Below, piece after piece: positions 1,481 through 56,761 of a stretch of DNA of 64,000 nt. Below the pieces are notes generated by a model that made no database searches, had not been told where the DNA came from, and worked only from the letters and a program-made list of their open reading frames with translations. The number at the start of each line of letters is the position of its first letter. The stretch's first letter is position 1. The DNA is from Coniochaeta sp. PMI_546. Taxonomy: Eukaryota; Ascomycota; Sordariomycetes; Coniochaetales; Coniochaetaceae. The translations under genes were made by a program, and so were the position numbers. The stretch is from the NCBI GenBank assembly GCA_021432605.1, contig MU271143.1, positions 319,277 through 383,276 of the forward strand, given 5' to 3'.

Positions 1481-3558
1481 TTAACCAACAGTGACGAAGT
1501 CAAGATAGCCTCTGATGCCGGAAACAATGGTGGAACAATAGATCTCAGCGCTGATCGTAGCACTTGTGCCAGTGACGGGGCCCGTGACTTCATAAGCCAC
1601 ATATTCAGAACTGAGAGAAATCGTGCTGGAGCATGTAGTGCCAATGCACAGCCTGAGGAAGCATCCATTGGATGCGTTATCTTCAGCCCAAGCTGTGAGG
1701 GTGAGAGACGAGGTGCCAGGGCATAGCGTGATGGTCTGCGCAAGTTTGTTGCGGCTGGAGCTTGTACCAGCAGTCACACGAACCTGGTGGCTTCCCTGTA
1801 CAGGAGCGTAACCACCTGTGTCGGTACCGATGACGGCAACGGCGCCTCCGGAACCTGTGGTGACCGTCCAGTCAGGAACGCCGGTGCCTGTCGACTCGAA
1901 GCCATAGTTCTTGACATAGTTGCATGCAGCCGTGGCACTTTCAAACAAATATTAGCACAGTGAAAATAGTACGAGCGAGGACGGTTACTTACGTTGCCGT
2001 AGCGGTTGACGTGCCCGTGACCGTGACGCTGGCAGTCGCGGTATTCGTGATCGTGGCGGACGACGTCTGGGTATTTGTGACCGTGGCGGACGACGTCTGG
2101 GTATTCGTGACCGTGGCGGACCCCGTCGACGTTGAGCTTGTCGTAGTCGTGGTGCTTTCAGTGAAGCTATCGGTCTCTGTTACGCTCGTCGTGAAGCTGG
2201 AAGTCTCCGTTGTAGACGTAGAGAAAGTGCTCGTCTCGCTGACAGTGAAGCTATCAGTCTCCGTGGTAGAGGTCGTGAAGCTAGAGGTCTCGGTAGTAGA
2301 CGTCGTAAAGCTAGACGTGGCAGTCTCGCTTGTGGTGAAACTATCAGTCTCCGTGGTACTCTCGGTGAAGCTGGACGTTGCGGTCTCGCTTGTAGTAAAG
2401 CTAGAGGTTTCCGTAGTGCTCTCGGTAAAGCTAGATGTTGCGGTCTCGCTTGTGGTGAAGCTGGAGGTCTCCGTAGTACTTGTCGTGAAGCTAGAAGTCT
2501 CTGTAGTACTCTCGGTGAAGCTGGAAGTTGCGGTCTCGCTTGTAGTGAAGCTGTCAGTTTCCGTTGTGCTCTCGGTAAAGCTAGACGTGGCAGTCTCGCT
2601 TGTGGTGAAGCTGGAAGTTGCGGTCTCGCTTGTAGTAAAGCTAGATGTTTCCGTTGTGCTCTCAGTGAAGCTGGAAGTTGCGGTCTCGCTTGTGGTAAAG
2701 CTAGAGGTCTCCGTAGTGCTCTCAGTGAAGCTAGAGGTCGCGGTCTCGCTAGTAGTGAAGCTGTCAGTTTCCGTAGTGCTCTCGGTGAAGCTAGAGGTTG
2801 CTGTCTCGCTCGTAGTAAAGCTGGAGGTCTCCGTAGTACTCTCAGTAAAGCTGGAGGTCGCGGTCTCGCTTGTGGTAAAGCTGTCCGTCTCCGTAGTGCT
2901 CTCTGTAAAGCTGGAGGTCTCCGTGGTACTTGTAGTGAAGCTGGAGGTTGCGGTCTCGCTTGTGGTAAAACTATCAGTCTCTGTTGTGCTTGTTGTCGAC
3001 GTTTCAGCTATCTTGGGTTAGTTACAACTGTTCAAATGCAGTGGTTGTGGAAATTAAGGGCAGCTCACTGGTCGTGGTCGTAGTTGTGGTCGAGGTGGTC
3101 GACGAACTGGTGTCGATCCGTGTCTCCGAAGCAGTCAGAGTATTGGTTATTGTTGCTGAGACGGTTGCGGTATCCGACTCGGTGGCGAGAATCGTGACAG
3201 TAGAGGACACGGAGACGGTTACGGTGTTTGTCAGGGTCACCGAAGCGGTGCTGGACTGAGTCGGGGGGACGGTTGGCGTGGAAGATGACGTCGTGGAGGA
3301 CGAAGTTGTCGTGGTAGGGGGAGCTCCGGTATTGATGCAGCTGCAGGCAGATGAGATGCGGGCAGCATCGCTACTACAGGCCGAGGCAAAGGTAGGGAGA
3401 GGTCCCGCAAAAAGGCTTGTCGTGAAGCTACTACAGAACGCGCTCGCCGAGGATGTCTTCGCAGTGTTCTGCAGACCACGGGCACAGTTATCCGCACAGG
3501 CTGCCCAGACAGGTGAGGCTCCGATGAGGCCCACGAGGGCGAGGGCGTTGAAACGCAT
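1481..3558 (-). CDS. Secreted repeat-rich adhesin-like protein with C-terminal CBM-like domain
   Basis: Exons are 3069-3558, 1993-3007 and 1481-1937, giving 653 aa with frame kept at both junctions (donors GTGAGC and GTAAGT; a CTAAC branch point precedes the first acceptor). The ATG at 3558 gives a clean signal peptide (MRFNALALVGLIGASPVWA). A cysteine-containing domain (residues about 20-95) ends in ISSACSCIN. Residues about 100-500 are Thr/Ser-rich, and their core is about 28 copies of a 10-residue repeat of the form SFTxSxTxTx. The last 150 residues (from NYVKNYGFES) form a compact beta-rich domain resembling the CBM_4_9/CenC carbohydrate-binding fold. A signal peptide, an O-glycosylated stalk and a sugar-binding head suggest a wall adhesin. 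No GPI signal is seen. Binding specificity cannot be read from sequence. Confidence 0.75.
2150..2998. repeat. 30-bp coding minisatellite, about 28 copies
   Basis: Tandem 30-bp units lie inside exon 2 of the adhesin-like gene. Each encodes ten residues of the SFTxSxTxTx type. Variants (TETDSF, TATSSF, TETSSF) alternate irregularly, sometimes as 60-bp pairs. All units keep frame, so copy-number change would lengthen or shorten the stalk without breaking the protein. Confidence 0.9.
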
Positions 3559-18448: not shown

Positions 18449-20072
18449 CGCCATATGTCCGTTAGAGTTCCCCGAAGGTCACCCCCGATGACCCGCTGTG
18501 TGTCGTACCAGAGAGAAAGCCACGGGCCTCAAAGCAATCTCCCGGCTTGCCGTGAAGAGATTGGTCCCTTGTGGGTTGCCATCCCCGACCTTGATCTCGT
18601 TGGGACCTGACCTTCATCATCCCCGATTGCCTCCCGTTCCACCCTCCCGGGGTCCGGTGGTCCGAGAGGCATTAATGCTTTCGCGGCGGTGAGTCAGCTG
18701 CGGTAAGCATAGCTAAGAAATGATGAGCAAGACTGCAAGACAGGATGACGAGATGGGCAGAAGACTTACCAAACGTCGATGGTCGCGACGCTGTCGGAAG
18801 GCACAGTTGGAAAGCTCACCAACCCAGCCTCAAAGAGAGTGTCTCAAAGAGGGTGGGCGGCTACGAAACCTCAAGGGTTTTGGCTGAGGGGATCGCGGGT
18901 CACCACTCATGTATCCCTATCTTCAGGTGCGACCTGGTTCCACCCACCCATTCCTCCATTCCATCCGTTGCCGGGTGCGATCAGTGTCGGATCGCGAATA
19001 CCATTGCTGATTGCCGATAGGGATTGCTGAGACTGATTCTTGTCAGAACTCCGCTCACAATGATCCAAGTGAAGAACAAAGAACATGGAGGAAAGAAATG
19101 TCATACAGGCTGACTGATGAGAATCTGCAAGTTAGACGACGAGATGATGGCCCAAGGTGATGAGAGTAGAGGGAAAAGGTGATGGCAGTAAAGCTGGTTG
19201 GAAATGAAGGTGGGTGATGAAAGCGGAAGATGAAGAGTGGGAGGTGGTGAGAATTGCAAGTTGCCAAGTAAAGAAGGGAAAGAGTGGAAGATGGCTTGAG
19301 AGATAATTAATTAAAGTGAGAGGAAAGAAAGTTCACAAACAGATGAGAAAAAGAAACCAAGGCCAAACCACGGGAGTCGAGCCACAAATGGAAAATATGG
19401 GAGCAACGCGTAGCAGGTGAAAACGGGGTGAAAACGAAGACGCGAAGATTTTGAAAAGGCAACAAAGAACGAAATATTTACCTGGAAAGCTGAAGACCGG
19501 AGAGGGTGGCTGACTTGATGGTGTCAGCGAAGAGTTCGTTGTTTCTCAGACAGCTTGGGATCAAGAAAAGAAGGTAGAGGAATGGAAACACGAAAGACCG
19601 AATATGGGAAGATGGGAATATCTGCTTGGCAAGTTGAGGTCAGTAGGTAGCGCCAAACCTGTTAGATTTCTATTCTTCAACAAGAGAGGAGAGTGAACTA
19701 CCGTCACTTGGGATGGATTTTGCTCGTTCTCTGAGGCTGTAGAATTGAGGCCGAAAGGTGTTTGGAAGTTATCACCGTAGGAAAATAGTGATCTGGGAAA
19801 GGAAAGAAATCTTGAGCTTACCGGAGAGATGAGTAAAGCTGTGTTCAGACGATGAACATAATGAGAACTTGAAATACCTAGACGAATGATCAGATCAGTA
19901 TGGTGATTTGGGTGACCAGTGGTAGAATGAGCTTGGCTACGATGCTGTCAGAGATATTCGCGCCTCCTCATTGCCAGAAAGCTCCAAGGATAATCAGACC
20001 TGTTCATCATCAAGACACCTGGAATAGAACGTACTATGAAAATGAAGCAGTGGAGTAGCTACCTTACCTGGT

Positions 20073-20288
20073 GATGCTGGTGATGCTGGTGATGCTGGTG
20101 ATGCTGGTGATGCTGGTGATGCTGGTGATGCTGGTGATGCTGGNNNNNNNNNNNNNNNNNNNNNNNNNNNNNNNNNNNNNNNNNNNNNNNNNNNNNNNNN
20201 NNNNNNNNNNNNNCTGGTGATGCTGGTGATGCTGGTGATGCTGGTGATGCTGGTGATGCTGGTGATGCTGGTGATGCTGGTGATGCTG
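20073..20288. repeat. 9-bp microsatellite (TGATGCTGG)n with embedded assembly gap
   Basis: Perfect TGATGCTGG units run on both sides of the gap, about eight copies left and eight right. The true array length is unknown. In the minus frame it reads as Ser-Ile-Thr or Pro-Ala-Ser triplets, which is a by-product of the 9-bp period and not evidence for a protein. Confidence 0.95.
20144..20213. other. Assembly gap (70 N)
   Basis: Seventy undetermined bases interrupt the microsatellite. The gap was most likely caused by repeat collapse. Confidence 0.99.
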
Positions 20289-20367
20289 GAAAGTGAGAAG
20301 GTGGGAAGACTGGAAGATTGGAAGGTTGAAAAGAAAAGAAAAAAAATTTGAAGAAGGGTAGTGGAAG

Positions 20368-51286: not shown

Positions 51287-51495
51287 TCACTTCGACGGAT
51301 AATACTGGACGTCCGCGTCCGCCTCTTCCCGCTTCGATGGATAGTACTGGACATCTGCGTCTGCCTCTTCCCGCTTCGACGGATAGTACTGGACATCTGC
51401 GTCTGCCTCTTCCCTTTTCGACGGATAGTACTGGACATCTGCATCTATTTCATCGCGTTTCGATGGATCGTACTGTAGGTCCGCATCGATATCGT
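51287..51495. repeat. 42-bp coding tandem repeat, five copies
   Basis: Five units of 42 bp, each encoding one core-plus-spacer of the precursor. The three central units differ at only a few positions. The unit farthest from the stop (nearest the signal peptide) is the most diverged, and the unit at the stop codon carries several silent changes. Confidence 0.9.
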
Positions 51496-51648
51496 GAGCC
51501 TCACGGACGGCCTTAGCTGCGAGACAATATAAGTTGGAGGTTCGCATATGAGGTGACTGCCAATGTTCTTACTGTGTGAGGCGACAGGTACTGCTACTGC
51601 ATGAGCAGCCAGCATGGTGATAATGGCTAAGGCCTTGTGCAGCTGCAT
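51287..51648 (-). CDS. Kex2-processed repeat precursor peptide, candidate dikaritin-type RiPP precursor
   Basis: Exons are 51573-51648 and 51287-51516, giving 101 aa. The 56-bp intron has a GTAAGA donor and TCTCGCAG acceptor. The ATG at 51648 opens a signal peptide (MQLHKALAIITMLAAHAVAV); an in-frame ATG 45 bp upstream would bury it and is less likely. The mature part is five tandem 14-residue units of the form EEADADVQYYPSKR. The first is degenerate (DADLQYDPS), the next four contain VQYYPS, and the last ends in Lys then stop. Lys-Arg after units 1-4 is a Kex2 cleavage site. The acidic spacer plus an aromatic core repeated between dibasic sites is the layout of UstA/PhomA/AprA-type precursors. 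The divergent neighbour is a UstYa-family protein. A TATA-like box lies about 115 bp upstream (51760-51765). Confidence 0.85.
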
Positions 51649-52386
51649 GATGAAGTATGCTGTGGTCGGTTTTCGATAATAATGAGCCTTCACAGATCAA
51701 ACCTCTCTTGCGCCTAAGAAGACGTGGCGGAATTTCTAGAACGCCAGGCTCCTACATGACTTATACCCTATCTTGCGTCTTCCTACGGCTGCCTCATTCT
51801 CTCGCTTTTTAGGAAGGTCGATGATGGCCATGAATGACGAGTCTAACACATCAAGTTCATCATGACGTCCTCTTGGCGGTACATACATCCGGCTTTCAAT
51901 TAACAGATGTGGAAGGTCAATCAGATCCTTGCAAGACAAATCCTTCCAATTCATGGTTGAAAGACCCAAGACCACAAATTTGCTCCAATCGACGCATTCG
52001 AGTTTTCGTAGGATCCAGCAGCCAAGACCTTGATACCACCATCGCGCGTGGATACAGCTACATTATCCATTGAATCGGCCCTCCACAATGCGTCGGCCCA
52101 TTGCTTTGCAGTACGTCTGCCTTGTACAGTGTTACCGTCATGAGGGTGGGCAGTGGCAAGATCGGTAGGACTATAGAAAATAGGCAGGTGGTACGAAGTG
52201 GCACGGTGCCAAACAACTGGGTATGCACCGCATTGTCACATCATGCGTGAGTAATGCTCAACCTCACGACGTCCTTGACCTCCATGACGTGCTATTCTCT
52301 AGTGATTCCTCTCAACATCTCTCTACCTACGCCGCCACCTTGGAACTCACTGTCAAGCCATTAGGACCGTTTGTCAACACGAAGCG
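51649..52386. promoter_or_regulatory. Shared divergent promoter of the precursor and UstYa-like genes
   Basis: 738 bp separate the two start codons. A TATAAG element on the minus strand at 51760-51765 suits the precursor. A 73-codon minus frame (ATG at 51954, to 51736) overlaps the interval and is not recognised. The head-to-head layout suggests co-regulation. Confidence 0.5.
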
Positions 52387-53542
52387 ATGTCTTCCGCCAT
52401 GGAACAGCGCAGCTACAGTCCTGTCAGCTTCCACGAGTCGAAGACGAGTTTAGAGTGCGAAAATGCGCAGTTGATCGGGATAAGCACCGCACCCAAGGCT
52501 CGGCGCGAACGGCTGAGGACCGTATGGATGAGCATTTGCGCAGCTGTGTTCTTATCAGGCTACACAGCGTTTGTAGTACTGCTAGCAAGACGAACCGTGG
52601 TAGAAGACCCAACGCATGGAGGCAAGATAATAAAATGTGAGCATGTCGCCGCAGACGGACTGTCTAGGGCAGGAATTGACTTTGCTGTAGCTCTTGCGGC
52701 TGATTATGTTCAGCATGAGATCCGCGAAATCGATTACTTGGACTGGGACCAGAGCTCTGCTTTCTTCGGGAAACCTAGCAAGACAGTGGATAGCAACTGG
52801 CATGAGCTGATAAAATGTAAGTGAATCGAGAGTGCGTAAGGATGACTTGTCGATATATGCTCTGCTAACAAGGTTGCTTGCTCCTCGAAAGATCACAATA
52901 TCGGCCTTCCAGCGTCCTACATGCGAGAGTTAGGTCGCGAGTATCAGGGCGTTCAGTTTCCTGACGGTCGATATTTTGGCTCCTTGATGGTGTACCACCA
53001 CCTACACTGTCTGGTAACATACGCACCCGATACCTGCTGGGATGTCCGAGATCTGATTGTCGAGGTGTACTGCAGAAACACATCTACCATGCCCTCTACC
53101 CTGAATACTATCCTGATGCACGCCCTGAAGCCGGTCACGAAGATGATTTCCAAAAGCACACAGGTAATGAGATCGAGACCGAACAGGTGGCAATCAAATC
53201 ATACTGACTCGGATTTTGCGGTAGAACACTGTCTCGGCGCCCTCAAGGCTTACGTCATGTGTAAGGCGGACGTGACCATCGAGACCATGTTATGGAGCCC
53301 GAAGCACTCGCTTCCTCTGCACAATGTGACGAGCACACACCAGTGCGTCAAGTGGGACTCTATTTTGGACTACGCCAAGGCGAACAACGAAGATGTCTTC
53401 GCAGACGGGATGCTGGTTCATCCGTCTTATGGTACGTGCGCGAAGAACTGCTGGTGATTAGCCTCTACTTGTAGTTTAGTTGCTGACCATCTTGTTACTA
53501 GGACCGGTCTTCAAGGACAGGAAGCCTGTGAACATATTTTAG
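52387..53542 (+). CDS. UstYa-like DUF3328 oxidase (peptide cyclase candidate)
   Basis: Five exons: 52387-52816, 52892-53013, 53076-53163, 53225-53431 and 53502-53542, giving 295 aa with all four junctions in frame. A single membrane anchor lies at about 46-67 (VWMSICAAVFLSGYTAFVV). Both HxxHC motifs that define UstYa-family proteins are present: HHLHC (179-183, context MVYHHLHCL) and HTEHC (212-216), the second only visible after splicing exons 3 and 4. The family segments YYPDARPEAGHEDDF and LKAYVMCKADVTIETMLW are also intact. UstYa/UstYb-type proteins carry out oxidative cyclisation of Kex2-released core peptides in dikaritin biosynthesis. A second in-frame ATG (52399) is possible. No UstYb partner, tyrosinase, methyltransferase or S41 peptidase gene is seen nearby. 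Confidence 0.93.
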
Positions 53543-55384: not shown

Positions 55385-56761
55385 ATGGACGACGAAGCCC
55401 ACGGTCCTTCGCCGGGCTCAAACGCCCAGCAGCAAGCAACCAGTCAGTTTGTCAAGTATCCAGACACAAACGAGCCAACTAACAAGAGAGCAGACAATAT
55501 GACGCCACTTCAGGTTCCGTTCTATCCAGACTTCAGCGGCATTAAAATGCCTAGAACTGATACCTTCTCCTTCTCCGCCTCTGCTGCAGCTTCGGAACAA
55601 GTTGTCCAGCCAGTGTTCCCATCAGCACCGTCAACGGTCGACAGCCCTAGAGTTGCCGCGCTGCGAAAGAAAATGAGCGACTCTTTCTTGAAGGAGGTTT
55701 CAACCTATTCGATGGAACAAGTTCTTGCCGCCAATAACCTCCAGGAGGCGTTACACCACCAATGGATTATCGCTGTGCCAGACCCAACAGAATGAATATA
55801 CGGTCCGCACGCAAGACCATTGTGTCCTCATCTTGAAGCCAAGGGACCACGAGACATTCGTTGACTTTCTGGACCGGATCCCATCCTCGCACTAAGATAC
55901 GACAAGTCTACGAGATACTATACCGCAAGCCCGACCGTCGCACGAGCGCTGATGTCGATCCAATTTCAGTCCATCCCACACGTGAAGCAAGCATCCCACC
56001 TTTGTGACAATAAGGACTGCGTTCGTATTGGTCACATTGCTCTGGAAACAGAGCCGGTAGCCTGTCAAAGAGCAACATGTTTTCGAGACTTCGTGGCGAA
56101 AGTCCAGGAAATCCTCGACACCGGGATCGACGGCGAAATGGTATTCCAGAGATTTTGCGTCAACAGTGCATATCGGATGAGCCCTTGCGACGTTTCTCTT
56201 TACCGGCCGACCTTCCACTTGATGCAGGATACGTTCATTTTGTCCAAGCGACAACTAATATTGTCGTCGGTCAGTCAGATTCTGGGCAGTGTGATCGGTG
56301 CGAAGCACGTCCAGACGTCCAAGTTCGTCTCTTGGAAGCTAGACGTCGAGTCGGGTAGGGATATTCCCATCCCCGATCTTCTGGTTTCGTTCGAAATACT
56401 GGAAGACAAGACTTGCGTGTTCAACACGGAGAGACTGGTATGCCCCCGAGTCTTCATCAATAACACACCGAGACAAGCCACGGGTGGAAGTATGTTTGAT
56501 GAGATGGTTGAGATGGACAACAAACCAGACTATCGTGAGCCCGATGAGAAGGTTGAGATGGAAAACAAGCGAGACTATCGTGGGCCCGATGAGAAAGTTG
56601 AGATGGAAAACAAGCCAGACTATCGTAGGCCCGATGAGGAGGTTGAGATGGACAACAAGCCGGACTATCGTGGGCAAGCACTTTCCGAGCACTACATCGA
56701 CTCTTCAATGACCCACATGGGTTGTGCCTGTGGTCCGAAGTGCCCACACATGAGGCAGTGA
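55385..56761 (+). pseudogene. His-Me-finger zinc-binding (HNH-like) protein gene, broken or with unresolved introns
   Basis: Two open segments share one frame: 55385-55795 (136 aa, Ser/Pro-rich start then a helical end) and about 55898-56761. Between them that frame has stops, while the next frame is open (QNEYTVRTQDHCVLILKPRD). The second segment has SHLCDNKDCVRIGHIALETE and a following RATC, which match the zinc-binding loop of His-Me-finger endonuclease-like proteins (HLCxNxxC...H...E...R..C). After it come a domain of about 100 residues, four 15-residue repeats and a CACGPKCPHMRQ end. I could not find strong splice sites that join the segments, so this is either a pseudogene with two frame changes or a gene with weak introns. 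Confidence 0.5.
56510..56673. repeat. 45-bp coding tandem repeat, about 3.6 copies
   Basis: Units start at 56510, 56555, 56600 and 56645 and encode EMxNKPDYRxPDEKV-type 15-residue repeats near the C-terminus of the His-Me-finger protein. Frame is kept through all units. Confidence 0.92.

Follow-up and report, generated by a model that had tools for sequence, protein, structure and literature searches.

A divergent pair of a Kex2-repeat precursor gene and a UstYa-family gene in Coniochaeta sp. PMI_546 as a probable minimal dikaritin-type locus

Can two genes that stand head to head, one for a repeat-bearing peptide precursor and the other for a single UstYa-family oxidase, form a locus for a modified fungal peptide, and of what kind would this peptide be? 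The question is raised by a pair of genes of Coniochaeta sp. PMI_546, a poplar-root endophyte whose genome assembly comprises 33.5 Mb in 24 contigs. The stretch of DNA that was analysed, referred to below as the window, has a length of 64,000 nucleotides and covers positions 319277-383276 of contig C1. As argued below, the pair very probably makes a small peptide that is secreted and modified by enzymes and that belongs to a kind already known from fungi.

The precursor gene, as read from the sequence, is located on the minus strand (51648-51287 of the window) and encodes a protein of 101 amino acids. Its exon 1 (51573-51648) holds the start codon and, judging from the reading frame and the GT-AG site, a hydrophobic, signal-peptide-like N-terminus; a predicted GT-AG intron of 56 bases (51517-51572) separates it from exon 2 (51287-51516), which encodes the repeats and ends with the stop codon. 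In the hydropathy profile, which stands in here for the SignalP prediction used in the survey of KEP genes, the values are high from about residue 5 to residue 22. The C-terminus is built of 14-residue units with Lys-Arg as a spacer. The first of them, HDIDADLQYDPS-KR, has Asp in place of the second Tyr and is not preceded by Lys-Arg; the second is DEIDADVQYYPS-KR, and units 3 to 5 are three copies of EEADADVQYYPS, the last of which closes with Lys and the stop codon, not with Lys-Arg. The earlier note had described five Lys-Arg-bounded repeats. Five units are indeed present, four of them ending with VQYYPS, but one is degenerate and lacks this ending, and only three of the five have Lys-Arg on both sides. 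KEPs are defined by at least three tandem repeats of at least 8 amino acids between dibasic sites, plus an ER signal peptide (PMC7329392), and the precursor has three such repeats. The 42-base array of exon 2 was also detected by Tandem Repeats Finder.

The UstYa gene (52387-53542, plus strand) is divergent from the precursor gene and consists of six exons. One hydrophobic, transmembrane-like segment (residues 45-69, approximately) is encoded by exon 1 (52387-52636), and the first HxxHC motif (HHLHC) by exon 3 (52892-53013). The second motif (HTEHC) begins in exon 4 (53076-53163), crosses the next splice and is completed in exon 5 (53225-53431). With exon 2 (52691-52816) and with exon 6 and its stop codon (53502-53542) joined to these, and with the in-frame intron of 54 bases (52637-52690) taken out, the spliced product of 277 amino acids is identical at 277/277 positions to the database protein P0002 of Coniochaeta sp. 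PMI_546. We consider this intron to be removed, because the product then equals P0002 letter for letter; when it is kept in, the product has 295 amino acids. The match to PF11807 (141.2 bits, cut-off 25) was scored on this 295-residue version, with the one intron retained. In P0002 the two motifs are H161-H164-C165 and H194-H197-C198, in agreement with the earlier description of a DUF3328 protein with both HxxHC motifs. Relatives of UstYa in the protein database were 17 proteins, from Coniochaeta sp. 2T2.1, Thozetella sp. PMI_491, Xylariales sp. AK1849, Beauveria, Metarhizium and others. Both motifs were invariant in 12/12 aligned UstYa sequences after 5 of 17 had been dropped as truncated or mis-spliced; in the full set of 17, invariance holds for the first motif only. 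The predicted structure (mean pLDDT 47.8) was too poor for use, and no solved structure matched the UstYa sequence at E up to 1.

The start codons of the two genes are 738 bases apart, and the region between them (51649-52386) may be a shared promoter. The head-to-head pairing had been claimed before, with limits that proved exact to the base: the stop codon of the precursor ends at position 51287 and that of UstYa at 53542. The reported lack of tyrosinase and S41 peptidase also stood, as the genome search gave no match to PF00264 (tyrosinase) or PF03572 (S41 peptidase) within the window; no methyltransferase was found among the 32 window proteins scanned, which represent a part of the window ORFs and include the two proteins of the pair. 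The profile matches of this set outside the pair look ordinary. They comprise a fatty acid desaturase, a zinc-knuckle protein, zf-His_Me_endon, a phosphoesterase and the VIT1 family, with aldo/keto reductase matches at two places (one about 8 kb from the pair), a thioesterase-like match below the cut-off, and ankyrin-repeat proteins farther away. Elsewhere in the window, a frame that matches the homing-endonuclease zinc loop contains a 45-base tandem repeat in four copies (56498-56675), and a 9-base unit, CTGGTGATG, forms two perfect arrays (20068-20289) of 8.4 copies each, whose starts are 146 bases apart.

The pairing recurs in the same genome. It has 34 UstYa matches, and merging those within 15 kb of one another gave 18 loci. 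The KEP scan, with pass criteria that we set ourselves, covered all of these loci: one is the window, and the other 17 are represented by 20 stretches of 10 kb, 13 of which were also searched for direct repeats. At least three similar dibasic-bounded segments were found at six loci (the window, L033, L043, L046, L049 and L050), and looser criteria added at least three more (L031, L032 and L040), in which the unit occurs twice or three times, giving a KEP-like precursor at no fewer than 9 of the 18 UstYa loci. This count leaves out, as low-complexity or irregular, the weak two-copy frames of L034, L037 and L038 (two) and those at L031:8154-8339 and L049:7719-7994; the low-complexity frame of the window and the shadow frames of the arrays in L033, L046, L049 and the window were not counted either. 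Of the eight KEP-like frames outside the window, six are preceded by a frame with a signal-peptide-like start, and in L043 such a start belongs to the frame itself; for L033 the picture was ambiguous. Among the frames listed, the precursor is divergent from the nearest UstYa piece in seven of nine pairs (L031, L032, L033, L046, L049, L050 and the window), the pair of L043 being tandem and that of L040 convergent. If the relative orientations were equally likely, the probability of at least seven divergent pairs of nine would be 0.0013, and that of at least five of the strict six 0.005. In L033 and L049 the divergent partners stand some 2.4 and 3.1 kb from each other, and a further gene may lie between them. 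Since UstYa was the basis on which loci were selected, we had set the criteria ourselves and two pairs are widely spaced, we treat the excess of divergence as a lead and not as a law. No promoter words beyond those in shuffled sequences were common to the seven divergent intergenic regions, and the terms 'bidirectional' and 'divergently' are absent from the text of the main KEP survey (PMC7329392). Paralogs matching P0002 are present in 6 of the 20 stretches, at only 22-41% identity, and therefore the other pairs were not copied recently from the window pair. No second convincing copy of the precursor was found in the genome; the two further matches (E 0.28 and 0.35) are in frames of 793 and 727 amino acids.

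The precursor-like frames of these loci differ in their units. The frame L033:7642-8523, which has a UstYa piece at a distance of about 3 kb, encodes a long protein of KEP-like build whose many di-histidine units (HHQGKK...) recall KEP types G-3 and G-8 of the 2020 survey; Coniochaeta is present in that survey under types G-2 and G-8 (PMC7329392). Near UstYa pieces, L046:6544-6873 is a KEP-like array with IWLW units, and in L049:1451-1789 GIYIGPG units alternate with FDYVGPG units. The region C1:2341-2368 kb (L040-L042), about 2 Mb from the window pair, combines an S41 match of 27.6 bits (cut-off 24) with three tyrosinase loci and five UstYa pieces, and one of its frames is precursor-like, with three units of the YLIAII type. 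By its gene content it looks like a phomopsin/ustiloxin-type cluster, and in principle its enzymes could serve the window pair in trans.

As far as gene content goes, the dikaritin-type RiPP reading of the window pair is well supported, and we hold it to be likely, with good confidence, that the pair is a minimal dikaritin-type (ust-RiPS) locus. The survey lists a UstYa (DUF3328) neighbour for 1758 of 7878 KEP genes from 1461 strains, with the neighbour count highest at the adjacent gene position, and these KEPs have the same architecture as the window pair (PMC7329392). Tyr is reported in 65.6% of the repeats of UstYa-linked KEPs vs 38.2% of the others (PMC7329392), and the Tyr content of the precursor units fits the former. 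Asperipin-2a of Aspergillus flavus is made by four genes (aprA, aprY, aprT and aprR), with one UstYa and no tyrosinase, from a core with adjacent tyrosines in which tyrosine becomes joined to beta carbons by ether links; Aspergillus oryzae has served as expression host for it (PMC6514808). The window pair shares with this pathway the Kex2-bounded repeats, the one UstYa homolog, the lack of tyrosinase and the adjacent core tyrosines, and its signal-peptide-like N-terminus may correspond to the signal peptide of that pathway, but its core is another one, and no aprT-like transporter or aprR-like reductase was recognised beside it among the 32 proteins scanned. With the phomopsin and ustiloxin pathways it has the precursor type and the UstYa family in common, whereas these pathways include tyrosinase and several more genes. 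What the earlier note had said of a dikaritin-type pairing is upheld by the anatomy of the genes, the Pfam match and the recurrence of the pairing in the genome, and the single UstYa and few genes that it had pointed out were seen. However, neither is exceptional, because KEP genes beside UstYa are a surveyed class and asperipin-2a shows the pattern of a single UstYa that lacks tyrosinase, methyltransferase and S41 peptidase beside it.

We propose that the precursor, as its N-terminus suggests, would enter the secretory pathway and be cleaved after each Lys-Arg by Kex2, for which the genome has one candidate, a P-domain gene at C7:898691. Removal of the basic residues by a Kex1-like carboxypeptidase, following the trimming rules described for Kex1 and Ste13 (PMC6339444), would release a 12-residue peptide, with VQYYPS at its end, in four copies. 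A UstYa oxidase, presumably membrane-anchored and with two copper-type HxxHC motifs, would then oxidise the peptide; UstY enzymes are described as having a dicopper site and as catalysing an oxygen-dependent reaction (PMC12186524). Most likely, the oxygen of a tyrosine would become joined to an adjacent side chain, which is the chemistry suggested for AprY of asperipin-2a, and the acidic EEADAD part would be trimmed by host peptidases. VQYYPS may be the core, and the product may be a ring closed through Tyr. The calculated [M+H]+ values are 756.3563 for VQYYPS (754.3406 minus 2H, 752.3250 minus 4H), 871.3832 for DVQYYPS and 1386.5696 for EEADADVQYYPS (1384.5539 minus 2H, 1382.5383 minus 4H).

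A rival reading takes the precursor array for a non-coding or decaying minisatellite that is open by accident. Short tandem repeats are common and the window has other arrays, and the non-synonymous differences that set units 1 and 2 apart (3 to 10 per pair, both from each other and from the rest) would suit such an origin. However, the five variable positions of units 3 to 5 are all synonymous, which occurred in 0.2% of trials when five transitions were placed at random; the array is preceded by a hydrophobic N-terminus joined to it through a GT-AG intron; and signal-peptide-like starts lie upstream of most of the like frames elsewhere in the genome, as described above. On these grounds we rejected the minisatellite, which seems to us scarcely credible. 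As units 1 and 2 differ non-synonymously, the constraint is demonstrated for units 3 to 5 only, and since it spans the EEADAD part as well as VQYYPS, the start of the core cannot be read from the sequence. Of the 950 stop-to-stop ORFs of at least 40 amino acids in the window, the precursor alone has at least three similar dibasic-bounded segments, which speaks against chance; a looser KEP test is passed by three frames, namely the precursor, the shadow frame over the same array and the low-complexity frame at 2183-3007.

The precursor could also give a linear signal peptide that is secreted and resembles a pheromone or hormone, with UstYa as a chance neighbour. About 78% of the surveyed KEP genes (6120/7878) have no UstYa neighbour (PMC7329392), KEPs can act unmodified, as alpha pheromones do, and the EA-DA register after the first Glu, in the way we set it, resembles the Ste13 signature by the published rule (PMC6339444). 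Against this stand the adjacent, divergent UstYa gene and the recurrence of the pairing at half or more of the UstYa loci of the genome. UstYa is reported almost never beside pheromone genes (3/216 fungal pheromones, 0/227 yeast alpha factors; PMC7329392), and the repeat peptides of alpha pheromones bear Cys and Trp (PMC6339444), both of which are absent from every precursor unit. An ascomycete alpha pheromone was rejected for the latter reason, and a linear signal peptide of any sort appears quite improbable. Another reading, which overlaps with the minimal dikaritin-type one, keeps the kind of pathway and assigns to UstYa a different reaction, i.e., desaturation, hydroxylation or halogenation, without a ring. 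A copper-dependent halogenase from a paper cited alongside the UstY literature is said to be a UstYa family member, which would favour this reading. So would the requirement of UstYa homologs for desaturation in phomopsin biosynthesis (PMC10512285). On the other hand, a Tyr-rich core with one UstYa resembles asperipin-2a, for which AprY alone was proposed to perform the sequential macrocyclisation (PMC6514808), and we regard a product with no ring as unlikely, if far less so than a linear signal peptide. Returning to the dikaritin-type reading, ring formation by UstYa is likely rather than certain, because UstYa homologs are also known to desaturate.

The kind of locus is already known, whereas the VQYYPS-type precursor is probably new and unannotated. 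Searches of the protein database brought up nothing that convincingly resembles the precursor: the one match, P0001 (E 0.88), has a different core with similar Lys-Arg-Glu-Glu flanks, and a lengthened probe gave no relative among the best 8000 candidates scored. Therefore, the core looks new. VQYYPS was also absent from the 25 papers listed, of 26 found, in a text search of the literature; the earlier note had likewise not recognised it among known products. Since the precursor was not found in the protein database, an annotation-based survey would probably miss it.

Finally, the divergent pair, with general secretory proteases as its only helpers, might suffice to make a Tyr-Tyr-Pro cross-linked peptide that has not been reported before, and such pairs might be the elementary unit of larger clusters. 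We offer this as a tentative possibility, somewhat doubtful as it stands. If it were true, the larger clusters of Coniochaeta sp. PMI_546 would have grown from divergent precursor-UstYa pairs, of which the at least nine loci, seven of them divergent, with their differing units, would be examples. By 2022, the number of dikaritins described was only five (PMC10512285), against 1758 predicted KEP-UstYa pairs, which makes a compact two-gene locus with a Tyr-rich core a convenient test of whether one UstYa is sufficient for making a cross-linked peptide. With about nine loci that bear different repeat units and are mostly arranged head to head, such peptides may be a sizeable part of the chemistry of this fungus.
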